A DNA stretch of 64,000 nucleotides from the NCBI RefSeq assembly GCF_000426625.1, contig NZ_KE384548.1, positions 1,026,703-1,090,702 of the forward strand, written 5' to 3'. Numbering within the stretch: the first letter of the stretch is position 1; each line of letters begins with the position of its first letter. The stretch is from Psychrilyobacter atlanticus DSM 19335 (GTDB taxonomy: Bacteria; Fusobacteriota; Fusobacteriia; Fusobacteriales; Fusobacteriaceae). Both the position numbers and the translations under genes were made by a program. Positions 7,717 through 52,987 of the stretch are shown here, one piece after another. The notes under the pieces are model-generated. The model saw only the letters and a program-made list of their open reading frames with translations, searched no databases and was not told where the DNA came from.

Positions 7717-7766
7717 ATAAAACTGAGATTTTTGAAGCTATTAAATTAATAGTTAAAAGATATAAG

Positions 7767-8618
7767 TTGAAATCAAAAATTAAATTTCTATGTTTTCAAG
7801 CGGGGGTTTCCAGGTCTGGTTTTTACAACTATATTAATTCAGAAAAAAATAGAAATAATAAAGAAGCTAAAGATTTAAACTCCAAAAGATTAATTCTAAA
7901 AGCTTTTAATAGAAGAGGTTTTAAGAAGGGCGCCCGAAGTATCAGGATGATTTTAGAGAATGAATTTGATACTATTTTTAATTTGAAAAAAATAAGAAGA
8001 ATTATGAAAAAATACGAAATAATATGTCCTCACAGAAAACCGAACCCCTATAAAAACATAGCTAAAGCAACTAAGGAACATTCGACTGTCCCTAATATAT
8101 TGAAAAGAGAATTTAAACAAGAAGTTCCTAAAAAAGTTCTCCTAACTGATATCAGCTATCTAACTTATGGAATTGGAAAAAGAGCTTATCTTTCAACAAT
8201 AAAAGATGGTAGTACTAATGAAGTATTAGCTCATGAGGTGTCTCATAGTCTTAGTATTGATATTGCTTTAAACACGGTTAAGCGCTTAGTTAAAAGAAAG
8301 TTTAAACTCCATCCAGAGTGCATTATTCATTCGGATCAAGGCTTTCACTATACTAATCCTAAGTTTCAAAGATTAGTGAAATCAAAGAAAATTATCCAAT
8401 CAATGTCGCGAAAAGGTAACTGTTGGGATAATGCTCCTATGGAGTCATTCTTTGGACATATGAAAGATGAAATAAATTTAAAGCCCTTAAAAACATTAGA
8501 TGATGTAAAGAAAGAAGTATCTAAATATATGAATTATTACAATAACCATAGGTATCAATGGAACTTAAAAAAGATGACTCCTGTGCAATACAGAAATCAT
8601 CTTTTAACAGTATCTTAA
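7767..8618 (+). CDS. IS3-family OrfB transposase, DDE integrase core
   Basis: 283 residues from a TTG. The frame is open further upstream, back through the end of orfA, so the natural product is probably the OrfAB fusion made by -1 frameshifting near 7702-7708. An HTH_21-like region is followed by the rve core. The catalytic triad is visible: Asp in LLTDISYLTY, Asp in IIHSDQGFHY, and Glu in APMESFFGHMKDE. KGNCWDNAP, typical of IS3 OrfB, precedes the Glu. The C-terminus NNHRYQWNLKKMTPVQYR is also canonical. No internal stop or frameshift is seen, so it should be functional. Confidence 0.94.
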   Translation: MKSKIKFLCFQAGVSRSGFYNYINSEKNRNNKEAKDLNSKRLILKAFNRRGFKKGARSIRMILENEFDTIFNLKKIRRIMKKYEIICPHRKPNPYKNIAKATKEHSTVPNILKREFKQEVPKKVLLTDISYLTYGIGKRAYLSTIKDGSTNEVLAHEVSHSLSIDIALNTVKRLVKRKFKLHPECIIHSDQGFHYTNPKFQRLVKSKKIIQSMSRKGNCWDNAPMESFFGHMKDEINLKPLKTLDDVKKEVSKYMNYYNNHRYQWNLKKMTPVQYRNHLLTVS

Positions 8619-39976: not shown

Positions 39977-40119
39977 AATATCCATCACTCAGCTATAATA
40001 TACCTATAGACTCAATTTACCTAAATAAATTGAAAAAATTATATCTTCAGGGTCTATAAAAAGGATTAAATATGGTATATACTCTAGATTGAATAATTTT
40101 AATTTTGGAGGAGTTAACT

Positions 40120-40824
40120 ATGAATATAGATGTAATATTTTCTGCCAATGAAGTAACAAAAGACAGAGTAGAGGGAAAAATAGTTGTGGTAATTGATGTT
40201 TTAAGAGCTACCAGTGTTATGCTTACAGCCATGAACAATGGGGCTGTAGAAATAAGACCATTTAAAGAGATCAATAAACTGATCTCTTATACCAAAGATC
40301 TCAAAGGGATCTTAAGATGCGGAGAGAGAAATGGGACTAAGATAGTTGGTTTTGACCTGGGGAACTCACCCCTGGAATATAAATCTGAAATAGTTCATGG
40401 AAAAATTATCTGTATGACTACTTCAAATGGGACAAACGCACTGGTTAACAGCAGTTATGGTAAGAAAATTTTCATAGGGAGTTTTTTTAATCTGGATCTA
40501 CTCTGCAAAAAAATAAATGAAATAGGTGAGGATTTAGTAATCGTTTGTGCCGGAACCAACGGTGAATTTTCTTTGGATGATTCCCTATGTGCAGGGGAAA
40601 TAGTTAAAAGGTTGGAATATAGAACCCTCAGTGATAGTGCCAGAGCGATGTATATGATAGCTTCTATCCCTGGGACTCTAAAAGATAAATTAAAAGAAAC
40701 AAAACACTATAACTTTTTAAAAGAATTAGGAGAAGTAAAAGATTTAGAAAACTGTTTTTCCGTAGATAGTCAGAACATCATCTTAGAATACAGAGACGGT
40801 ATCATAAAGAAGTATGAGGAATAA
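40120..40824 (+). CDS. comB: ComB family 2-phosphosulfolactate phosphatase
   Basis: 234 residues from the ATG at 40120, preceded by TTGGAGGAG. ComB hydrolyses 2-phosphosulfolactate to sulfolactate, a step of coenzyme M synthesis in methanogens; many bacteria carry the gene without coenzyme M, with unknown or sulfolactate-related roles. Conserved ComB blocks: KIVVVIDVLRATSVMLTAMNNGA, CGERNGTKIVGFDLGNSPLEY, MTTSNGTNALV and ICAGTNGEFSLDDSLCAGEI-like VIVCAGTNGEFSLDD. No other sulfolactate genes are visible. It lies 73 bases before, and in the same direction as, the unknown cluster. Confidence 0.9.
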   Translation: MNIDVIFSANEVTKDRVEGKIVVVIDVLRATSVMLTAMNNGAVEIRPFKEINKLISYTKDLKGILRCGERNGTKIVGFDLGNSPLEYKSEIVHGKIICMTTSNGTNALVNSSYGKKIFIGSFFNLDLLCKKINEIGEDLVIVCAGTNGEFSLDDSLCAGEIVKRLEYRTLSDSARAMYMIASIPGTLKDKLKETKHYNFLKELGEVKDLENCFSVDSQNIILEYRDGIIKKYEE

Positions 40825-40897: not shown

Positions 40898-41800
40898 ATG
40901 AAAAAAATATTGGAAGAAAACAGGGTAGTTGTAGACATAAAAAACGAAGAGGAGTTATTAAACACGGCAGATCTGATGATAGATATGTTAAGGGACAGGG
41001 AAACTGTAAAAAAAATAAGTGAGTATAATGAGGAAGTAGAAGGTTTCATCCTTCAATTTGGTAATAAAATTCAGGATGAGTTTATAGAGTGGACCCTGGA
41101 AGATATAGAAAAGGAGTTAGACTTTGAATTTTATGAAGAGGATATTAATGAAAGCTACCTGACATATTTATTCGCTCTAGGAGAGATAGATGGCGGGAAG
41201 GAAAAGATATTGGAGATACTGGATACAATTATATCAGATGAAGAACTCTCTCATATGTATGAAAATGAGTTTATCTATATACATGAAACTCCTTTCTATG
41301 TATTATCCAATCTCTATCCAGAATATTCATATTACCTTGGAACTATTGTAAACGAGATGCCATTAACAGTGAAAGATCACTGGTATTTAGAGCTGGGCAG
41401 TGAAACTATTCAAAAAATGGATAAAGATATAAATTCACTGAAATTATTTTCCCACCTTTTTGCCAGTCATTGCATAATTGAACTATTTGAAGAGGAGTAC
41501 GAAGAACTTGGAGAAGAATTAGCAGGTGCAATAATAGAGGACGAAACTAACTATAAGTTATTTATCGAAAATTTCAGTGCCAGAATATTTGATAATCACC
41601 TGAAAAGTGATGAATCTGACCTTAAGACCTATGTAGAAACCTTTATAGAGGAGAGAAATCAACATGTAGAACAACTTATAGAAGATGAATTAGAGATAGA
41701 TAATACAAAAGAATTAATGAATAGGATAGAGGTCCATGAAATCTTAGAAAAGATTCAGTGGGTAAAGGCAGCGAGAAAAAATATGGAAAGAAACAATTAA
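40898..41800 (+). CDS. Acidic protein, member 1 of the YWDDEHA-type cluster
   Basis: 300 residues from ATG 40898 (GGAGGAG eight bases upstream); the longer frame from 40814 overlaps comB and lacks a ribosome site. Very acidic, predicted mostly helical, no signal peptide or membrane segment. Its centre (about 95-165) aligns by eye with the module of the larger neighbours: ESYLTYLFALGEIDGGKEKILEILD, then FYVLSNLYPEYSYYLG, corresponding to IYGFVRLYPEYTYLLG in the 964-residue protein. The WDDEHA part is not retained. I recognise no named domain; it may be a truncated paralogue or a partner protein. Confidence 0.7.
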   Translation: MKKILEENRVVVDIKNEEELLNTADLMIDMLRDRETVKKISEYNEEVEGFILQFGNKIQDEFIEWTLEDIEKELDFEFYEEDINESYLTYLFALGEIDGGKEKILEILDTIISDEELSHMYENEFIYIHETPFYVLSNLYPEYSYYLGTIVNEMPLTVKDHWYLELGSETIQKMDKDINSLKLFSHLFASHCIIELFEEEYEELGEELAGAIIEDETNYKLFIENFSARIFDNHLKSDESDLKTYVETFIEERNQHVEQLIEDELEIDNTKELMNRIEVHEILEKIQWVKAARKNMERNN

Positions 41801-41905
41801 AATTAATGAGATCGAATAAAAGAGATCAATATAAAATATCAGAATAACATTAAAAATTATGAAAGATCATATTTTTTTAACTGTATCGATCTACTGGGAG
41901 GCAGT

Positions 41906-42790
41906 ATGCATAGGATAGTTTTAGACATGGGAAAAAATGAAATTGACAGGTATAGGAAAGCTGCTATAGAGTTAATAACTCTCATAAGAACCTTTAGAAA
42001 AAAATCCCTAAAAGAATTTAAACTAAAAATAGAAACAAGTACAGGAGAACCACTGGATATTTCCCATTTAAAAAGCAGAGGTCTATATGATGATTACAGT
42101 AACCATTGGAAAACTCACGGTTCCGAATTTATATTTATATTAAAATTAATAGAGCTGAATATGGAAGACAGGGCCAGTGATATAGGATGGGAGATAGTAA
42201 AAGTAGCTCAAAGTGTTCAAACTCCTGATTTTCTATTTGTAGAAACTGGATATACTTTTGGACTGGATATCCTATATGCTGTTGCCGGAACCTATCCAAA
42301 TTGGACGAAATTATTTAACGACTTCCTACAAGAAAGCTGGGACTCCAGCCTGGTTCCCCCATACTCAAATATGATGGAGGATCTCATTGAAAAAAACCAG
42401 GAGAAAAAACCAAGAGCATGGGTTAAATCTTATGGAATTTTCGGATTTGCCAGTGATTTTGTAGCAGGTATAAATATCAGTCTGACTCCACCTAGACTTA
42501 ATCGAAAAGCTGAGATAGGGAGCTATATAGGGTGTGTCTATACTCTGGCCGATAATTTATTTAAAGACAACTCTCAAACTCTCAATATATTTGTAGGTGT
42601 AGAGGTAAAAGATTTTGAAGGAAGGGTAGTCCATACAGATAGATGGCCGGATATAGCTTTCAAAGGGAGAAACAATAGTTCTTGCTTTGTGGCAGAGGAA
42701 GGGGAATTATTTGAAGGGCATTGGAAGTTTACAGTTACACACAACGGGAAGGAACTGTATGAACAGACCATCCCTGTTATGGTAATGTAA
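41906..42790 (+). CDS. Unknown protein, member 2 of the YWDDEHA-type cluster
   Basis: 294 residues, ribosome site GGGAGG. No signal peptide. The stretch about 70-150 (SEFIFILKLIELNMEDRASDIG, then LDILYAVAGTYPNWTKLFNDFLQESWDSS) follows the order of the shared module, with ESWDSS at the place of PYWDDEHA. The last 100 residues look like a beta sandwich (IFVGVEVKDFEGRVVH, GELFEGHWKFTVTHNGKELYEQTIPV), different from the other members. Soluble cytoplasmic protein; function unknown. It lies 105 bases after member 1 and 33 before member 3, in one operon. Confidence 0.7.
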   Translation: MHRIVLDMGKNEIDRYRKAAIELITLIRTFRKKSLKEFKLKIETSTGEPLDISHLKSRGLYDDYSNHWKTHGSEFIFILKLIELNMEDRASDIGWEIVKVAQSVQTPDFLFVETGYTFGLDILYAVAGTYPNWTKLFNDFLQESWDSSLVPPYSNMMEDLIEKNQEKKPRAWVKSYGIFGFASDFVAGINISLTPPRLNRKAEIGSYIGCVYTLADNLFKDNSQTLNIFVGVEVKDFEGRVVHTDRWPDIAFKGRNNSSCFVAEEGELFEGHWKFTVTHNGKELYEQTIPVMVM

Positions 42791-42823
42791 AAATTATGAT
42801 AATTAAATATAATAGGAGTTTTT

Positions 42824-45718
42824 ATGATAGAAATTCAAGTAGATAGAGATGGTATAGCCAGCATTAAAAATGCATTGATAGAATATGCAGGGACAATAAA
42901 AAATAGAGAAGCTCTTAACAGCGATGGATATGGAGGATGTTTAAACCTGTCCTTCGTAGGAATAGATGGCAGCAAATTAAGAGTAGAGACGATAAGCTCT
43001 GAAAAGGTTCTCAAGGCCTTTGAGGGATATTGGATGTATTCTTATGGAGGAACTACCAATGAGGAGATATTTTTTGCTATAGCTATGGAGTATGATGAGC
43101 TAAAAGATTTTATCTTAGAAGTCTTCAAGGAGATAATCGATTATGCTAGGGAAGTAAACGATACAAGTGAGCTATGGAGTGATGATGATAATAACCTTAT
43201 TGGATTGGGAAGCATCTATGGGTTTGTTAGATTATACCCGGAATATACCTATTTGCTCGGTCTTTATCTAATCCCTTATTGGGACGATGAACACGCCCCA
43301 TTTGCAATCCATGCAATCCAAGATTTAACTATGAACATGGGAATATCCAGAGATACATTAAAATTATTTTGTTATTCAGATAACTATGAAATAAGAAATC
43401 AAATTTTTAATAATATGACTACTTGGTTCAGGGAAAATAAAGATGAATATGAATGGTTTAAAGAAACCTTGAAGGAACGATTTAGGGAATATCCATTTTT
43501 ACCACGACATAGTGATGACGAAGAAGTGGAGCACCCAGTGGATGAATTTTATCTGAGTTTAATCAGTGATAGATTTGATTATGAAACCTATGAAGATGGT
43601 GAAACTACTAATTTTTCTGATTTTTTCGTCTATGACAATGGGGATGTAGAAGCTGGTGCCTTAGAAACAGAGATCTTAGAGACTACAGAGAAACCACTAA
43701 TTTATATAGCAAAGAAGAAAGAGGCAATGAAAAAAAACAGTATCAACCCGATAATAGCCTGGGAAAACTTCATAATAAATGAGTTTAAATTTGGTGTAGA
43801 GATTTGGAGCTATATTATCTCTGACGGGGACAGAGATATCCTAAGATCAACAAATGATCTATATAGTAAGGATCTATATGAACTTATCCATAATTCTGAC
43901 TATCCTGTAAAAAAGTATATTCCCAGCTGGTGCCAAAATACAAAAGATTTATGGGAGAATTTAGATGATTTCACTGAAAAAGTCTTTACCAAATTTATGT
44001 ATACCTATACCCAGGTCTATGGCGATATTATCCTCAGGCTCACTGATTTTTTATTTGAGTTATTCGACAGAAGACCCTTTGAGGAAAATTTTATCGATGA
44101 ACTAATCGATGAATACGAAGTTACAGATAACGAAACTTTGCAAGAGAGATACCCTGTTCCTATAGAACTCTTGTTAAAAAAGAATATAAAAAATTATATA
44201 AAAAGATCCAGAACACCCTATAGAGGTGAAATTTTAGCAGTAGCCAGCCTAATAGAGAAGATCAGGGAAAGCAATGAACGGTTAGTTATTACAACCTTTG
44301 AAGAAATCTTGGAAGGGAAAGTAATTGATAAAATAGAGGTAGAAGAATTATTTGAGGGTTCAGAATATAATCCAAAGATTACATTAAAGCCTCAGAAGAC
44401 TGCTAAATTAATAGTTTTATTAGCTGATATTCTAAAAACAGACTTCAAAAAAGACAGAGATGATGGATTAACTAAATTCAGTAGAGATCTTCTGGAGGAT
44501 AATCTAATAAAAATATTTGTAGAAGGTTTAGAAGAAAATTTAAATTATAACCACGATAAAGAGATCTGGTCTGAGATCCAAGAAGGAATAGAGAAAGGCA
44601 AAAAAAATTCATGGGACAAATATGGAAAAATCTTACAAAAAGATGAAGATAATAACTTTGCCGGATCAAATTTTAACGTCTATGAAAGCAGGGAAGTAGG
44701 ACAGAAGATACTCCAATCTATATATCTTTTAGCTGGAGAAGGAATCGAACTAAAGGAGAAATACAAACTTATCCTTAATTTCTTTATGGATGGAAACCCT
44801 GTAAAAAGCATTAACGCCATAAGTAAATTATATAGAGGTAGATATAACAGCGATGAGATCTTTGATGGAATGGATTCCTTTGTAGACAAACTTAAAAAGA
44901 TCGGAATAAGTAAAGTCCACATACTGGCCTGGCAGGGGTATTTTTACAATGAAGAATGTAGTAAGCAGAGTCAACAAGATTTTTTGGATAGATTGGTCAG
45001 AGAAAATATGGATCTTTTAGAAGAGGTTCTTTCCTATCTATATGAAGAGATCCGATTTGCATACTATAAACTTCTCAAAAAACTTCACCCTGAATTAGAT
45101 TTTATTACAAAAATTTTATTTGATACCCTCAAAGAATTCACGCTCCTAAATATTGTGGTTATCCCTGAAAAAGAGTGTGATAATCAATCGATAGAACTTA
45201 AAAAATCTCAAATATCTGAAGATATAGGGAGATACTTTCAAGGAAAATCTGATTTTAAAGTGGTAGAACCTCATATAAATTCTATGAAGGAGGAGTATTT
45301 TTTTGAAACTAGGAGTCACTATACCATTGCAGATGCATTTTTAGATATGGACAGCCAATTAAGAAAAAGATTTTTAAATTTTTATCTCAGAACCAAGTCC
45401 GATATGTATAAGGTAATCTTTTCAAGACGATATGATAATGCGGTATTAAAGGAGATTGTAGCCCTTGTAATAGATCTAAACCTTCCATTGGAGCCTGTAC
45501 TGGCTGAATTTATTGAAGATCAAAACCCAGAATCTATAAGGTTATTAATCCAGAACCTTGATATAATCGAAACTATAAGATCCTATCCAGATAAAAAAAG
45601 GTTGGAAGCCGTTAATGTTTTAACGAAGGACAGATATTTTAGAAAATATCTAAAACATTTTGAAAACGACAAGTCTAGAAGGATCAAGGATTTAGTTAAA
45701 GATTATTTTAGATATTAG
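42824..45718 (+). CDS. Large unknown protein, member 3 of the YWDDEHA-type cluster
   Basis: 964 residues, no signal or membrane segments, acidic and helix-rich like a HEAT/ARM solenoid. The N-terminal quarter carries the shared module: EEIFFAIAMEYDELKDFILEV, DYAREVNDTSELWSDD, FVRLYPEYTYLLGLYLIPYWDDEHA (to about residue 155), then DEYEWFKETLKERF. EKPLIYIAKK follows near 300. The C-terminus ends in basic-acidic helices (HFENDKSRRIKDLVKDYFRY) that match the end of the 1073-residue paralogue. Size recalls YehI/MolR-type proteins but no WGR or other named domain was seen. The next gene starts 11 bases on, so it is probably co-translated. Arginine codons are almost all AGA/AGG. Confidence 0.75.
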   Translation: MIEIQVDRDGIASIKNALIEYAGTIKNREALNSDGYGGCLNLSFVGIDGSKLRVETISSEKVLKAFEGYWMYSYGGTTNEEIFFAIAMEYDELKDFILEVFKEIIDYAREVNDTSELWSDDDNNLIGLGSIYGFVRLYPEYTYLLGLYLIPYWDDEHAPFAIHAIQDLTMNMGISRDTLKLFCYSDNYEIRNQIFNNMTTWFRENKDEYEWFKETLKERFREYPFLPRHSDDEEVEHPVDEFYLSLISDRFDYETYEDGETTNFSDFFVYDNGDVEAGALETEILETTEKPLIYIAKKKEAMKKNSINPIIAWENFIINEFKFGVEIWSYIISDGDRDILRSTNDLYSKDLYELIHNSDYPVKKYIPSWCQNTKDLWENLDDFTEKVFTKFMYTYTQVYGDIILRLTDFLFELFDRRPFEENFIDELIDEYEVTDNETLQERYPVPIELLLKKNIKNYIKRSRTPYRGEILAVASLIEKIRESNERLVITTFEEILEGKVIDKIEVEELFEGSEYNPKITLKPQKTAKLIVLLADILKTDFKKDRDDGLTKFSRDLLEDNLIKIFVEGLEENLNYNHDKEIWSEIQEGIEKGKKNSWDKYGKILQKDEDNNFAGSNFNVYESREVGQKILQSIYLLAGEGIELKEKYKLILNFFMDGNPVKSINAISKLYRGRYNSDEIFDGMDSFVDKLKKIGISKVHILAWQGYFYNEECSKQSQQDFLDRLVRENMDLLEEVLSYLYEEIRFAYYKLLKKLHPELDFITKILFDTLKEFTLLNIVVIPEKECDNQSIELKKSQISEDIGRYFQGKSDFKVVEPHINSMKEEYFFETRSHYTIADAFLDMDSQLRKRFLNFYLRTKSDMYKVIFSRRYDNAVLKEIVALVIDLNLPLEPVLAEFIEDQNPESIRLLIQNLDIIETIRSYPDKKRLEAVNVLTKDRYFRKYLKHFENDKSRRIKDLVKDYFRY

Positions 45719-45729
45719 GAGGAAGGAGC

Positions 45730-47484
45730 ATGAAAAAATTATTGATAATAATGTTCTTATGGTCACTTAGTATATTTGGGAAAGTTCATCCCAATATTTC
45801 TTTGAAATATCTTCAGGGAAATAAAAAAGATTCCTTTCTTGGAGATATGATAGAAATTGATGATAGTGAACTCCGATTTGAAAAAAGAGATGGCAGGTAT
45901 AACATCTTTATCTATGACAATACTGGCAGAAAAAGTCCTATAGATTCCTTTGAGGAAGAGAGGGAGATTTTAAGTGTATTTTTCCATGAGATCAGCGGAG
46001 ATACTCTCAAAGAAATATTTATGATCACCAGATATAAAGATAAATATGAGATCTACTCCTACGGTGTAAGTTACGATCGTTTTTCCTATTTTTTTGGAAG
46101 TTTAAACAGGTTAAATAACCTTTTAAATAACCACTTTAAAAACACTAAAAATTTAAATGCTTCTATGGTAAAAAAAGAATTAAAAGGGAAAGTTCCACTA
46201 GATTATGGCAGCCTGGAATTTTGGCCGACAGATAAAGACAGTTTCTATAAGGGGATAGATCTTTTAAAAGGAGAATTTTTAGGTTATTATGATCACAGTG
46301 GAAATAAGGTGAAATCTTCTGATAAAGCAGATTATTATCTCAGAAGGTACAGGGATAATATTTATGGAAAGTTTGAAAAAGTCGAATCTTTCTCATTGAC
46401 ATCGATATTTGAAGGCCGAGAGACAGATCAGCCTCCATATTATGTGAAACAAGGGAAATATAGATCCTCATATGGTGAGGGCTATGAAGAAGGATCCTAT
46501 ATCGATGATACAAAGCATGGCAACTGGGAAACTATTGAAAGGATGTATCATACCTATGGAAGATATGATATGGGAGAGAAAACTGGACAGTGGTGGCTCA
46601 ATGGCTATAAGGGAAAATTCGTCAATGACTTAAAAGAAGGACTGTGGATAAGGGAAGGTGGCACAGAGGAAGAACTCTATGCAGAAGGAAAATTAAAGGA
46701 AAGTCGGACCTACGATCAGGAGAGTAAGGAATTGACAGAAGAAACTATCTATAATGGAAATGGAAGCTATATAACCAAGGAATATTTAGGCCCCGCAGTC
46801 ATAAAAAAAAGTACCAGAAGCAGTGAAGGAAAATATAGAATAGAGGAATATAACCCCAATGGAAAACTGATTTATCTGACGAAAAATGACGGTGCAAGGA
46901 TAAAAATAGATTCCTATAAACACAGTCAGCCTAAAAGTCTTTATGAATCCACTGAATGGGATAATCTGGAGTATTTGGGGGAATTAAAAGGTTATGGACA
47001 GATAGCTTTTTCCCATGCCTATCTCCTGAAAAATAGTGAAAACGTCAATGCTTATAGAGCAAGAATCTATAAAAAAAATCTGGGGGAAAAAGAGATTTTC
47101 TTTATGGCAGTAAAAAAAGATAGAAGCAGATATTATTGGATCCGTGAAATTTTTGAAGGTCATATGACAGAGGGAAAATTCCCTTCTAACATTGTAAGGG
47201 AAGGGAAAAACGAATTATTTACCCGTGGAGAAAACATTATAGAAACCGGTAATTATAAAAACAATAAATTAAGTGGAGCAATGCTGAACTACAGCTCCGG
47301 CAGGGTCTATCAGGAGATAAATTTTGACCAGGGAAAATGGCACGGAACATATAAAGAATATGATCAGGATGGAAATTTGATAGCACACTCTAAATATGAG
47401 ATGGGTAAAAAAGTAGAAGAAATTAAAGACATCGATATAGACGCTGCCGTCAATGAATTTTTTAGAAATTTGATTTATGAATAA
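45730..47484 (+). CDS. Exported MORN/YwqK-like repeat protein
   Basis: 584 residues. Signal peptide MKKLLIIMFLWSLSIFGKVHP, then a first part without recognised domain and a repeat region. Repeats of the YwqK/MORN-variant type, about 20 residues with aromatic, Gly and Gly-x-W/Y positions, include DTKHGNWETIERMYHTYGRYD, GEKTGQWWLNGYKGKFVNDLKEGLWI, and near the end YSSGRVYQEINFDQGKWHGTYKEYDQDGNLIAH. YwqK-like proteins are labelled antitoxins by analogy, but many are envelope proteins without toxin partner. It sits between two large paralogues, so it may be the extracytoplasmic part of the same system. Ribosome site AGGAGGAAGGAG. Confidence 0.8.
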   Translation: MKKLLIIMFLWSLSIFGKVHPNISLKYLQGNKKDSFLGDMIEIDDSELRFEKRDGRYNIFIYDNTGRKSPIDSFEEEREILSVFFHEISGDTLKEIFMITRYKDKYEIYSYGVSYDRFSYFFGSLNRLNNLLNNHFKNTKNLNASMVKKELKGKVPLDYGSLEFWPTDKDSFYKGIDLLKGEFLGYYDHSGNKVKSSDKADYYLRRYRDNIYGKFEKVESFSLTSIFEGRETDQPPYYVKQGKYRSSYGEGYEEGSYIDDTKHGNWETIERMYHTYGRYDMGEKTGQWWLNGYKGKFVNDLKEGLWIREGGTEEELYAEGKLKESRTYDQESKELTEETIYNGNGSYITKEYLGPAVIKKSTRSSEGKYRIEEYNPNGKLIYLTKNDGARIKIDSYKHSQPKSLYESTEWDNLEYLGELKGYGQIAFSHAYLLKNSENVNAYRARIYKKNLGEKEIFFMAVKKDRSRYYWIREIFEGHMTEGKFPSNIVREGKNELFTRGENIIETGNYKNNKLSGAMLNYSSGRVYQEINFDQGKWHGTYKEYDQDGNLIAHSKYEMGKKVEEIKDIDIDAAVNEFFRNLIYE

Positions 47485-47523
47485 AGACAGTCTAGATAAA
47501 ATAAACTATAAAGCGGGGGAAAA

Positions 47524-50500
47524 ATGAACCAATTTGACAAATCAATAAAAATAAAAATAGAATTAGGCAATATAGAATCTATTAGAGCTGGACTACAAGA
47601 ATATCAGTTATTACTTCAAAATAAAAAAGCATTTGTTAATAGACAGTTTAATGTAGAGTTCGTTAAGATTATAGGAGATAAATATTTAAGACTTCAAATA
47701 GGAGATACTAAAAATATAAAATTTTTAAAAGAATCTTTGGATCTAGGACAAGAAGGGGGATCTCACCTTTATCCTGACTTCATAGAAGAAGATGAGGAAT
47801 CATATGTATCGGAACCAATATTTATTTCTATAGCTCTTGAATATCCAGAACTAAAAGATGAAGTTGTCCGTACAGCAGAAGCTATTGTAGATTATAGTCG
47901 CTATATGAACGATACCAGCCATATGTGGGTAGATGATATGAGGGTCTTTGGTATTGAAGCTCTCTATATTCTAGCTCGAACCGATATTAAATATGCATAT
48001 TTAGTATCTCAGTTTTTTATCTCTTATTGGGATGATGAACACGCCACAGGTTATGAGGGATACCTCTTTAGCTTATTAGAGCGTTATGGTTGGAGACGTG
48101 ATTTAATCAAAGCATATATATATTGTGATAATCAGCAGTTTCGTTATGGAATGATACGTATAGAAACATGGCCATGGGATGATAATGAATATACTGTTAA
48201 AGAATGCGAATCCCTCGGCAAATACCTTAAAGAAAACCTAGATGAGTATGAATGGTTTAAAAATGAGATTTTTAGACGTTTTGAAACTACTCCAATGATA
48301 TTTAATTCTGATTATGATCTAGATGAGTTAAATCCAGTGGTAGAATTATTTTCTACTTTATCTTCTTCAATGGAAGACTATGAAACAGGTTATGAAGACA
48401 CCAGAGACAGATTATATAAACATTTTATCTTTGATACTTTAGAGAATGAAGCTATGGATCTTCAAGATAAAATAGCTGAAAAGGTAGAGAAACCATTAGT
48501 GTGCTATTCAGAAAATGATACAAAAGAAAACGAGGAACAACTTATTCTAGAGAAGCACTCTAGGCAATCTTTAAGTGAAGACTTTAATGATCTTAAAGTT
48601 TTTATATTGGCATTTCCAAATGGAGATGCATTATGGAATTATATTGAAACTGGGAAAAATGAAGGTAGTCTAACTACACTAAAAGAAATAAATTTGTTTT
48701 CTTTAGCGAAAGAGAAGGCTCCAGGTTTCTATCTTCAAATAAAATGGATGATTAATAATTTTGATGGTTATACAAACCATGAAATTGCTGAGGAGTTGGA
48801 AGAACTTTTATCAGGCGTGGCAGCTTACCTTCTAGATGAGGAGAGCAAAGAAGTTATACATGAAAATGGCATGATCACTGAAATTACAATAAGGTCTGAA
48901 AAGTCAGAAAATATATCTCAGGGAAAAAATCAGTTTCTACGTATCCTGGATGTATTTTATAGATCACTGGGAGAAATTACACTCACTTCTATGTATGAGT
49001 TCTTAACTGAAGAAGATACTTCTATAATTAGCCATAAAGAATTTTATAAACGATTCAGCCCAAACTCGCAAATTGACGACAACCAAGAGGACTCAAGGAA
49101 GTTACTTGAGCAGAGAAAATTACTTCACATTAAGTTTAGTGGTGAATTAGAGCGTGGGGCATTTTCCTTTGCTGATAAAGTTTTAGAGTTAGATCGGGAT
49201 GCGTATGATTGTTCAAGCTGGGATAGAAAAGATATAGGTTCTATTTGTCTGGCAGCTTATATGCTTCATAGGGATAGCGAGCAATTTATTTATGACAATT
49301 ATACCAAGGGATTAATAAACTATATGGAAGAGGGCCCTTGGGAGATTATTTTTAAAGATCTCTTAGAATATCTAGATGAAAAAAAGATCAGTGCAGAGGA
49401 AAAAGAGAAGATTCAAAACTTCTTTACTTCTCCAGTACAAATGACAATTAATCAAGAGGATATTCTCAATATATTAAAAAAATCTCTCTATCGTGAGGAA
49501 TGTTTTCGTGGAGATTTAACCTTCAATAAATTTAGCCAGCATCAGCCGTCCTATTCAGTATTTCGTTTTAGAGATCGTTTTCAACCTGCTATTTTATCTT
49601 TATTTTATTTACATAATCTAAGGTCCCCTTTGGGTATGCAGGCTAATCGTATCTGGAAGCTTCTAGTGGCGTTAGCTCCTCAACGAGTTATCCGCCTAGT
49701 ATCAAAACCTTTTTCAGAGGAGTATCATACTACAACTTTTTCTGATATGGATAAGGAAGATAAATTTTATAGTTCTATAGAGCGTGCTAAAATTCCTAAG
49801 GAACAAATATATGCTTTTCAAATGGTTCAAAACCAAGATACACATAAAATTAGTAATCCATGTGAAGTAAAAGAATACCTACAATGGCTAGATCTGTACA
49901 ATGAAATTGATGATGAAGATTGTGGAATGATAGGTGCCGCTCGAAAAAATAAAGCTATAGCTCTTGAAAAAGGATTATATTATATAAACGAAGCAAATCG
50001 TATCCGATTTTTTCATGATCTTTCTCTACGCCATCCACGTTTTGTATTTAAGCAAGATGAAACTTTTTCCCGTTGTTTAAAGATTTTTATACAATTAAAT
50101 TGGATGGGGGATAATATAGTTGAACTGGTTAATTTTCATGAAGATTTATTAGCTTATATTTTAGACGGCGGGGATTACCTAAAAATCTCCAATAACTTTA
50201 AAAAATATATTAGGACGTCATCTCTGAGTGTCGGTTCAGATGAACATACCATGAGCTCTTTAGGTCAATTTTTCTGGTTACTGAGTGAAGAATCCCAAGG
50301 TCGTTTGGCAACTTTATTACTTAATCACAGTACAAGATGCTTTAAAATCTTAGAACATGGTTTATTTTTATCTTATCAAGATATCCAGATAAGGGAAGGA
50401 AAGATGACTCTTGAAGATCGTTTAGCAACTTCCATTGAAGGGATTTTTGATGAAGAACTAACAGATTTAAAGAATGAACTTTATACACACTTATACAATA

Positions 50501-50745
50501 GAGTACGACCTTTAAATATTGAATCGAAAAAAATATTACACTTTGCCATAAGATCCAATACACTGTCATTTAATAATTATTTGTTAGAATTGGCACGTTC
50601 ACAAGAACTTAATGAGTTGATAGGAGACCTCGACACTGAGGACTCTATCTATTTAATCAACCTATTCAAAGTTCAAAATGATGCCGAAAAACTGCTGGTT
50701 CCTTTTAAGAATAGTAAATTTAGAAAAATCCGTGACTTGATATAA
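47524..50745 (+). CDS. Large unknown protein, member 4 of the YWDDEHA-type cluster
   Basis: 1073 residues, soluble, acidic. Clear paralogue of the 964-residue protein: EPIFISIALEYPELKDEVV, DYSRYMNDTSHMWVDD, AYLVSQFFISYWDDEHATG (about residue 160-178), ENLDEYEWFKNEIFRRF, EKPLVCYSEN, and a matching C-terminus FKNSKFRKIRDLI. The middle 600 residues differ. Codon use is unlike the neighbours: by my reading about half of its arginines are CGT/CGA/CGC/CGG, against about one in eight in the 964-residue paralogue. That points to separate acquisition rather than recent local duplication. Ribosome site GCGGGGGA. Function unknown; no catalytic motif recognised. Confidence 0.75.
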   Translation: MNQFDKSIKIKIELGNIESIRAGLQEYQLLLQNKKAFVNRQFNVEFVKIIGDKYLRLQIGDTKNIKFLKESLDLGQEGGSHLYPDFIEEDEESYVSEPIFISIALEYPELKDEVVRTAEAIVDYSRYMNDTSHMWVDDMRVFGIEALYILARTDIKYAYLVSQFFISYWDDEHATGYEGYLFSLLERYGWRRDLIKAYIYCDNQQFRYGMIRIETWPWDDNEYTVKECESLGKYLKENLDEYEWFKNEIFRRFETTPMIFNSDYDLDELNPVVELFSTLSSSMEDYETGYEDTRDRLYKHFIFDTLENEAMDLQDKIAEKVEKPLVCYSENDTKENEEQLILEKHSRQSLSEDFNDLKVFILAFPNGDALWNYIETGKNEGSLTTLKEINLFSLAKEKAPGFYLQIKWMINNFDGYTNHEIAEELEELLSGVAAYLLDEESKEVIHENGMITEITIRSEKSENISQGKNQFLRILDVFYRSLGEITLTSMYEFLTEEDTSIISHKEFYKRFSPNSQIDDNQEDSRKLLEQRKLLHIKFSGELERGAFSFADKVLELDRDAYDCSSWDRKDIGSICLAAYMLHRDSEQFIYDNYTKGLINYMEEGPWEIIFKDLLEYLDEKKISAEEKEKIQNFFTSPVQMTINQEDILNILKKSLYREECFRGDLTFNKFSQHQPSYSVFRFRDRFQPAILSLFYLHNLRSPLGMQANRIWKLLVALAPQRVIRLVSKPFSEEYHTTTFSDMDKEDKFYSSIERAKIPKEQIYAFQMVQNQDTHKISNPCEVKEYLQWLDLYNEIDDEDCGMIGAARKNKAIALEKGLYYINEANRIRFFHDLSLRHPRFVFKQDETFSRCLKIFIQLNWMGDNIVELVNFHEDLLAYILDGGDYLKISNNFKKYIRTSSLSVGSDEHTMSSLGQFFWLLSEESQGRLATLLLNHSTRCFKILEHGLFLSYQDIQIREGKMTLEDRLATSIEGIFDEELTDLKNELYTHLYNRVRPLNIESKKILHFAIRSNTLSFNNYLLELARSQELNELIGDLDTEDSIYLINLFKVQNDAEKLLVPFKNSKFRKIRDLI

Positions 50746-50845
50746 AAACTAAGAATAGTTAAAGTTTGAATAAATGTAATCTACAAAATTGGAAACTATA
50801 TAGATATGAATATAGAAAAAATAGAAGGGATAGGAGAATCAAATA

Positions 50846-51445
50846 ATGAAGAAAATTATATTAATTATTATAATATTTTTAGGGTTTAATAATATTATTT
50901 TAGCAGACAGCCCTATAACTTCTACTAACTTTAGTGAAGCTTATGAAGACATTTTTATAGTTCAAAGGGCGTCAGAAGCTACATATTTGACAGAAGAATT
51001 AATAGAATATCTGGATAACCCTAATAATCCTATAGATGTAAAAGTCGCACTAATCAATGAATTGGGATGGGACAATGAAAATCAAGATAATTATAGTTTA
51101 TTTTTTAAATATCTTATGATGAAATATCATTATAAAGATTTTAATGAGCTAGTTTCTAAAGCTTCGGGAGATATACTTATTTCACTGGCTTATTTAAAAG
51201 CTATGGATGATTATTTCAATGTCAAAAGTTCCGCTTTATTAGCAGAAATTGCAGTAAAGAAAAAAGAATATAGTTACACTATAAATATTATTTATGGATT
51301 AATAATGGGTCAAAAGTTCATGGATGAAGACTGGAGTAAGATTAATCTAATAACAAGTTCTGTAGATAAAAATAGACATTTAAAGAGAGATATGAGAGAG
51401 GATGCTATTAAAATTATTTTTAAATACATGAATATATATAATTAA
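50846..51445 (+). CDS. Exported protein of unknown function
   Basis: 199 residues. Signal peptide MKKIILIIIIFLGFNNIILADS, mature part of about 178 residues that is helical and acidic, with VALINELGWDNENQDNYSLFFKYLMMKYH and ISLAYLKAMDDYFNV suggesting TPR- or HEAT-like helices. No cysteines. It lies 100 bases after the 1073-residue protein in the same direction and is probably part of the cluster. A weak GGAG ribosome site is present. No family recognised. Confidence 0.7.
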   Translation: MKKIILIIIIFLGFNNIILADSPITSTNFSEAYEDIFIVQRASEATYLTEELIEYLDNPNNPIDVKVALINELGWDNENQDNYSLFFKYLMMKYHYKDFNELVSKASGDILISLAYLKAMDDYFNVKSSALLAEIAVKKKEYSYTINIIYGLIMGQKFMDEDWSKINLITSSVDKNRHLKRDMREDAIKIIFKYMNIYN

Positions 51446-51490
51446 TTCAGTTGCAGCATATAGAAAAAAATTTAATAAAGGGGGTTAAGA

Positions 51491-51703
51491 ATGGGAAAAA
51501 TAATAGTAATACTATTTCTAATAGCGTTAATAGGAGGTTATCTCTGCTTGTCAGCTTATAAGAATGATGATAAATTCTTTAATTTACCCCACCAGAAAAG
51601 AACAGTGGATATTTTTGGAAGGAAAGTAGCCAGATTATTTTACTTTGGATTTGGATTTGCCATAATTGTTGTTACTTCAATATTTATTGTTAAGATAGCG
51701 TAA
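51491..51703 (+). CDS. Small two-helix membrane protein
   Basis: 70 residues with an N-terminal helix (MGKIIVILFLIALIGGYLCLSAY) and a C-terminal helix (FYFGFGFAIIVVTSIFIVKIA), separated by about 22 polar residues (DDKFFNLPHQKRTVDIFGRK). AAAGGGGG precedes the ATG. It closes the 40-51.7 kb gene run before a strong terminator. Function unknown. Confidence 0.65.
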   Translation: MGKIIVILFLIALIGGYLCLSAYKNDDKFFNLPHQKRTVDIFGRKVARLFYFGFGFAIIVVTSIFIVKIA

Positions 51704-51737: not shown

Positions 51738-51784
51738 AAACTAGTCAGGCTTTTAGAATATTTCTTCTAAAAGCCTGACTAGTT
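51738..51784. terminator. Strong bidirectional terminator closing the unknown cluster
   Basis: A 21-bp perfect stem (AAACTAGTCAGGCTTTTAGAA and complement at 51764-51784) with a 5-base loop, between convergent operons. Confidence 0.92.
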
Positions 51785-52141: not shown

Positions 52142-52987
52142 TTAATTTGTATTCATAGAAGAAAGGTTCTTTTCCTTGTTTATCTCATATATTGTCTTGG
52201 CAACCAAAACTCCTAAAAATGCAGCTGAGATCATATCACTCAACCAATGTCTTGTCCCGTATATACGGGCTCCACTCAAGACTACAGAATAAACTATGGC
52301 CAAGCTTCTGATCACTTTATTTTTATATCCATAATAAAATGAAAACGCTACCGCTACAGATACAATTCCATGTCCCGAAGGAAGACTGGCACTGGAACTA
52401 TGAAATGGATTTACACTTCCATTCCCGTTAAACCATGAAGCCCAGTTAAAAAACTGATATGGGAGCATATTGACATCCGGCCTCAACCTGGAAATTATAT
52501 ATTTTAATAAATTTACTAATATTCCAGAGGCTATGACGCTGACCACTGCATTTTTGGAAACCTTTATTAATTTTTTATTTCCCAGCAGACTTCCTATCAA
52601 AAGAATTACTACCACTGAAGCTCCTGCTACATCTCCATCCCCCTGATCAGCCAAGAATCTTTCATATTTTGAATATTTTTCCTTGTTTATATTTTCTACT
52701 TTTATTTTCTTTTTTAACTCAGCTATCTCCTCCGAACTGGCAGTTCTTGCTCCATTTTCTATTCCCTCTAGAGTTTTAGCATAATATTTATTGGAAAACT
52801 TACTGGCTACAGGAAGATCCAAATAAACTATACTAAATACAGTTAATATTATTCCTATTATCGCTGCCTTTTTGTATTTTATAAGATTTTTATAAAATGC
52901 CCCTATAAAACCTTTCAAATAACCTTCCCTTAAAATTTCCAATGCTATTAGGATTATTATTATTACCATCAATGTTTCTTTATTCAT
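52142..52987 (-). CDS. PAP2 superfamily phosphatase
   Basis: 281 residues, about six membrane helices. The three acid-phosphatase motifs are present: KYIISRLRP (KxxxxxxRP), SLPSGHGIVS (PSGH) and GARIYGTRHWLSD (RxxxxxHxxxD). Members dephosphorylate phosphatidate, phosphatidylglycerol phosphate or undecaprenyl pyrophosphate on the periplasmic face. The N-terminal segment EGYLKGFIGAFYKN resembles the 46-residue protein encoded just upstream. The operon promoter carries a putative response-regulator site shared with the adjacent two-component genes, so envelope-stress control is likely. Confidence 0.92.
   Translation of the reverse strand: MNKETLMVIIIILIALEILREGYLKGFIGAFYKNLIKYKKAAIIGIILTVFSIVYLDLPVASKFSNKYYAKTLEGIENGARTASSEEIAELKKKIKVENINKEKYSKYERFLADQGDGDVAGASVVVILLIGSLLGNKKLIKVSKNAVVSVIASGILVNLLKYIISRLRPDVNMLPYQFFNWASWFNGNGSVNPFHSSSASLPSGHGIVSVAVAFSFYYGYKNKVIRSLAIVYSVVLSGARIYGTRHWLSDMISAAFLGVLVAKTIYEINKEKNLSSMNTN

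Follow-up and report, generated by a model that had tools for sequence, protein, structure and literature searches.

A patchily distributed family of giant solenoid proteins with a YWDDEHA module and interchangeable ends

Introduction

Giant HEAT-like solenoid proteins have been described in the MolR/YehI (DUF4132) group, which includes the E. coli gene set yehI-L-M-P-Q with its DUF4132, MoxR, YehM, vWA and SWIM components. Polyimmunity loci and proteins featuring SUKH, ankyrin, LRR and HEAT domains are likewise on record (PMC3482391), as are the MoxR-vWA ternary conflict systems, in which MoxR AAA+ and vWA proteins are associated with solenoid third components (PMC7159879). Domain swapping is a typical theme of conflict systems (PMC7159879, PMC3482391). 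At the level of overall architecture, the PDB holds numerous alpha-solenoids of the karyopherin/HEAT type.

Here we analyse a run of seven genes within a 64,000-nucleotide stretch of the Psychrilyobacter atlanticus DSM 19335 genome (the window) and compare it with these systems. In common with MolR/YehI, it encodes giant HEAT-like solenoids; relatives of these occur in the same Vibrionaceae genomes as DUF4132 proteins, are linked to genes of this system in one genome (G172), in Flammeovirga and in two clostridia, and have a core in common with clostridial DUF4132 proteins. In contrast to MolR/YehI, the window proteins are without a DUF4132 domain, the window genome is without DUF4132 or DUF5682, and there is no detectable similarity to YehI itself. 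The repeat-domain proteins with swappable ends are reminiscent of polyimmunity loci, and a second locus of a congener contains SUKH, ankyrin, DUF1963 and MORN/DUF4241 fusions, whereas the window cluster contains neither a toxin nor a recognised immunity family and its very large proteins are conserved across phyla. The MoxR-vWA ternary systems resemble the family in the MoxR AAA+/vWA association seen in some genomes, in the solenoid components and in the swapped domains, yet the module family is not named among the classes described in PMC7159879 (VMAP, iSTAND and others), and MolR, DUF4132, WGR and SWIM are absent from its text. The karyopherin/HEAT proteins share only the overall helical solenoid architecture of the largest window protein, P0005, whose N-terminal cap has no counterpart among them.

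Results

The run occupies positions 40898-51703 and consists of seven co-directional ORFs of 300, 294, 964, 584, 1073, 199 and 70 aa on the plus strand; checking the ORFs bore out the coordinates and lengths given for these genes in the initial annotation. It opens with P0001 (40898-41800), an acidic, helical, genus-specific protein, which is followed by P0002 (41906-42790), P0003 (42824-45718), P0004 (45730-47484), P0005 (47524-50745), P0006 (50846-51445) and a gene for a membrane protein of 70 aa with two helices (51491-51703), and it is closed by a strong terminator-like hairpin of 20 pairs on the same strand (51739-51784). Signal-like N-terminal segments are found in P0004, which also has weak MORN_2/YwqK-like repeats, and in P0006, a helical protein that is again specific to the genus. 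P0002, P0003 and P0005 are presumably cytoplasmic, as inspection by eye revealed no signal or membrane segment. The run is preceded, at a distance of 73 bases, by a 2-phosphosulfolactate phosphatase-like gene (40105-40824), which has the same position in the congener and may be co-transcribed with the run.

The congener (G007) retains the gene order of the cluster except for P0005, and dN/dS values of 0.07-0.21 across the five cluster genes compared between the two genomes indicate purifying selection. P0005 is absent from the congener as a single gene, P0004 and P0006 lying there 50 bases apart (L008 8680-8731, compared with 47484-50846 in the window), and P0005 is therefore dispensable for keeping the rest of the run. 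The gene for the 70-aa membrane protein is conserved in the congener (L008 ~7760-7970), with ATA in place of the ATG of the window, which would be either a start loss or a non-standard start. At the cluster boundary lies a PAP2-type phosphatase of 281 aa in the window (52142-52987), which is truncated to 220 aa in the congener (L008 6841-7503) and has a different end there.

Four proteins of the run had been proposed to share one module, and comparison of the sequences upholds this for P0003 and P0005 and, in reduced form, for P0002. The N-terminal ~330 residues of P0003 and P0005 are alike at 32% identity (BLAST E 1e-36), the module itself comprising ~300 residues (residues 2-293 of P0003, 42827-43702; residues ~8-326 of P0005, 47545-48501). 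The common stretch includes DTSxxWxDD and YWDDEHA as well as ENxDEYEWFK and EKPL, two matches that had been pointed out before. A further match claimed for the C-termini of the two large proteins is too weak in the pairwise comparison (E 0.37), but the family consensus does end in the same motif, DKSRKVRDxV. P0002 carries a shortened module (residues ~5-165, 41918-42400), which hhalign detects with a probability of 96.9% and a score of 74, compared with at most 22 in 100 shuffles, and the text at the motif reads ESWDSSLVP rather than YWDDEHA. The C-terminal part of P0002 is a DUF3859-like domain (residues ~174-293, 42425-42784; hhalign 94%, score 46.5 compared with at most 20 in shuffles), and P0002 is, to judge from this composition, a miniature version of the type B proteins described below. 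The fourth proposed member, P0001, is marginal against shuffled controls and is not counted here: it has only LYPEYxYxLG in common with the module, the hhalign probability is 36% with a score of 33 where the best shuffle reaches 29, and nothing above shuffles is found by hmmsearch. Profile comparison of P0001 with the first gene of a clostridial operon likewise revealed no link.

Scans of the window proteins place the module in no Pfam, NCBIfam or PADLOC family, PADLOC gives no match for nine proteins, relatives included, and searches of PDB sequences with P0002 and P0005 return no match. The module family is thus new with respect to Pfam, NCBIfam and PADLOC; the initial annotation had likewise known of no described counterpart for the set as a whole. 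AlphaFold models full-length P0005 (pLDDT 85) as an alpha/beta-helical cap, followed by a long helical solenoid, for which Foldseek against the PDB gives only generic HEAT/karyopherin solenoid matches with TM ≤0.15 and none better than E 1e-3. The module alone is modelled with a pLDDT of 92 and a pTM of 0.93, and Foldseek finds no significant match to this model in either of the two libraries searched, the PDB and a viral library. As a confident model without a structural match in these two libraries, the module looks like a new domain fold. E97, N129, D130, W135, W169, D170, E172, H173, D202 and R207 are highly conserved in the module, and nine polar positions (E97, N129, D130, D170, E172, H173, D202, R207 and R252) are kept in 38-43 of 44 non-redundant sequences, a pattern that would be compatible with a metal- or ligand-binding site.

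A search of genomes with a profile of the module had been suggested at the outset; with the module alignment as query against 85,000 species genomes, it identified at least 29 loci with full-length relatives. The hosts include Clostridium, Oceanirhabdus, Tenacibaculum, Myroides, Mesonia, Flammeovirga, Fulvivirga, Ancylomarina, a spirochaete and Desulfoluna, with many further relatives in marine Gammaproteobacteria, and at least six phyla are represented (Fusobacteriota, Bacteroidota, Spirochaetota, Bacillota, Thermodesulfobacteriota and that of the Gammaproteobacteria). The module tree splits with good support into two clades. Type A comprises P0005, lone gammaproteobacterial genes encoding ~1190 aa and the first genes of A-B tandems; type B comprises P0003, the congener protein P0008 and the second genes of the tandems. 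Such tandems are found in Myroides, Mesonia, Flammeovirga, Fulvivirga, Ancylomarina and a spirochaete, and the whole-length identity of P0005 to the A members of five of them is 39-43%, with 29% for Flammeovirga. Relatives usually occur alone or paired, type A often as a lone gene. Most type B proteins have DUF3859 as their C-terminal end, P0003 being without it. One Vibrionaceae genome encodes, immediately upstream of a type A gene, a separate protein of 569 aa whose end is DUF3859-like. In the literature searched, we found no paper that names DUF3859.

The family is patchily present: carriers make up 2 of 98 Fusobacteriota, 26 of 197 Vibrionaceae and, in the class that includes Myroides, a single one of 295 genomes. 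Together with the mixing of phyla in the tree, this distribution suggests horizontal transfer. Searches of IMG/VR and of phages gave no relatives, and on plasmids there are only two weak matches, both on large Vibrionaceae replicons, on which grounds we rejected the idea of a phage or plasmid cargo family.

Downstream of the module, the ~300-residue middle solenoid of the family (in P0005 a shared core at residues ~536-861, 49129-50106, which is followed by a HEAT-like C-terminus; in P0003 a solenoid that follows the module) shares homology with the N-terminal region of two sets of clostridial proteins, those with DUF1963 at the end (hhalign E 8e-16) and HEAT proteins with DUF4132 at the end (E 2.7e-10, score 95 compared with at most 28 for shuffled sequences). 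Profile comparison detected no similarity of the core to E. coli YehI, and no homology was found between the solenoid and the L075 protein. The ends found on proteins with the core or the module are DUF3859, DUF4241, DUF1963 and DUF4132, in addition to the LRR and MORN repeats of P0008. The core homology, the DUF3859 and DUF4241 ends of type B and the LRR/MORN/DUF4241 composition of P0008 lead to the picture of a constant core with interchangeable ends, a form of domain swapping that may be read as a conflict-system trait.

The lead offered in the initial annotation towards MolR/YehI and HEAT-repeat adaptors proved a good one, not only through the core homology to clostridial DUF4132 proteins, but also through co-occurrence and physical linkage. 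Among 197 Vibrionaceae genomes, 8 contain both the module and DUF4132, 18 the module alone, 2 DUF4132 alone and 169 neither; the module is thus present in 8 of the 10 genomes with DUF4132 compared with 18 of the 187 others (Fisher p 1.2e-6, phylogeny not corrected for). Counting the eight joint genomes as only five gives a p of 2.8e-4, the number of DUF4132 genomes being small. In G172, a type A gene has a DUF4132 gene on one side and a MoxR-DUF5682-vWA run on the other, a gene set of the same kind as E. coli yehI-L-M-P. In Flammeovirga, the A-B tandem is preceded by a complete SWIM-DUF5691-MoxR-DUF5682-vWA run (L095 5830-13442), whose end is 4.6 kb away and separated from the tandem by three genes of the opposite strand, and in two clostridia a DUF4132 gene lies within the operon. 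The association is partial: genome searches found neither DUF4132 nor DUF5682 in the window's own genome or the congener, P0001-P0006 show no match to Pfam DUF4132 (PF13569), MoxR, DUF5682 and vWA are not among the window genes scanned, and 18 of the 26 Vibrionaceae module carriers are without DUF4132. The link to the chaperone is therefore not obligatory. When 129 neighbours of module genes were scanned against Pfam, no partner or immunity family proved enriched, and PADLOC gave few, scattered matches on the same set. Papers on DUF5682 or DUF5691 were not found in the literature searched.

The interleaved exported proteins had been proposed as parts of a multi-component cytoplasm-to-envelope system, a view that the searches do not support for a fixed, general system. 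Among the 98 members of the phylum searched, P0001 and P0006 occur only in the window genome and one congener, relatives of P0004 are present in genomes without the module, and in other genomes the module genes are single or form A-B pairs, with no exported partners. Co-occurrence of the exported proteins with the module was checked, and none of P0001, P0004 and P0006 was found near module genes elsewhere. The resemblance of P0004 to MORN/YwqK proteins is weak, its MORN_2 match scoring 18.7 bits against a Pfam cut-off of 29.6. The confinement of P0001 and P0006 to two genomes and the absence of linkage for P0004 identify the exported proteins as local additions, for which a local functional link with the module genes is possible in this genus.

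Discussion

As the best explanation, held tentatively and with somewhat less than even confidence, we propose that the A and B proteins are giant cytoplasmic solenoid adaptors with a cap and swappable ends, probably related to biological conflict. P0005 (type A) and P0003 (type B) would then form the core of the cluster as a pair of very large cytoplasmic alpha-solenoids. Both start with the YWDDEHA cap and continue into the solenoid core, and most type B proteins end in a DUF3859 beta domain. The DUF3859 domain that P0003 lacks is probably provided in trans by the small P0002. We infer that A and B cooperate as an adaptor or scaffold, in which the cap and the swappable end would recognise a protein or ligand, and that the pair acts as a receptor presenting this target to another component. 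That partner may, in some hosts, be the yeh-type MoxR-vWA AAA+ chaperone; for this genus, where that chaperone is missing, it would be something else, possibly the lineage-specific neighbours. As module carriers tend to have a MoxR-vWA-type chaperone, the proteins are probably conflict-system adaptors rather than a fixed export machine, and the biological setting would most likely be conflict (defence or immunity) rather than housekeeping. Arguing against the conflict and adaptor reading, most neighbourhoods contain no conserved partner and PADLOC matches are few. No toxin gene adjoins the window cluster.

A rival possibility is a polyimmunity locus that neutralises incoming polymorphic toxins, with the module as an immunity-type domain. 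It draws on the congener, whose type B protein P0008 combines the module with LRR, MORN_2 and DUF4241 and lies, at a second, polyimmunity-like locus (L009 57-11430), beside two SUKH genes, DUF1963 and two ankyrin genes, and on the weak likeness of the 70-aa window protein to Imm17 (sub-cut-off, E 0.012). In the window itself, however, the Pfam scan shows a run without a toxin, SUKH or other recognised immunity gene, and none of the immunity families that would make up a tandem array (SUKH, SuFu, Imm) has a significant match there, such an array being seen only at the other locus of the congener. Moreover, proteins of 1000-1400 aa with full-length conservation across phyla do not resemble immunity proteins of the small, fast-evolving kind, and most relatives stand alone with no immunity family enriched alongside, which makes this explanation unlikely. 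The nine conserved polar residues of the cap, from E97 to R252, could alternatively form the active or metal site of a new enzyme with the solenoid as a mere scaffold, an idea that we consider quite improbable, given that Foldseek matches no known enzyme fold and that P0002 is without most of these residues. Lastly, a cytoplasm-to-envelope machine, in which P0004, P0006 and the 70-aa protein are essential envelope parts, would account for seven co-directional, tightly spaced and terminator-closed genes whose order, except for P0005, is kept in the congener; it is nonetheless very improbable in view of the two-genome confinement of P0006 and P0001 and the independence of P0004 from the module in other genomes.

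Extending the adaptor reading, the A-B pair with its new cap might be the recognition core of an undescribed modular class of conflict system, in which cap and solenoid are constant and DUF3859, DUF4241, DUF1963, DUF4132 or MORN ends are interchangeable. It could serve as an alternative substrate receptor of the yeh-type MoxR-vWA chaperone in some hosts and act with lineage-specific envelope partners in others, such as this genus; we regard this broader proposal as doubtful. A large family in at least six phyla with what looks like a new domain fold, missing from the libraries searched, would become annotatable, and its link to yehI-L-M-P-Q opens a way into an E. coli gene set on whose function we found no paper in the literature searched. 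If the conflict reading is true, the family adds a modular solenoid class to the defence and immunity systems of bacteria.

The PADLOC candidate model PDC-S05 matches two of the 129 neighbouring genes scanned. At L072 8720-11864 and L073 386-3565, relatives of ~800-820 aa are encoded that have the middle solenoid and no recognisable module, and they are followed by a conserved ~235-aa gene outside recognised families. In the genome of the Desulfoluna locus L027 (G158), a type B protein of 1494 aa (L070 7300-11784) carries DUF3859 and then a sub-cut-off DUF4241.
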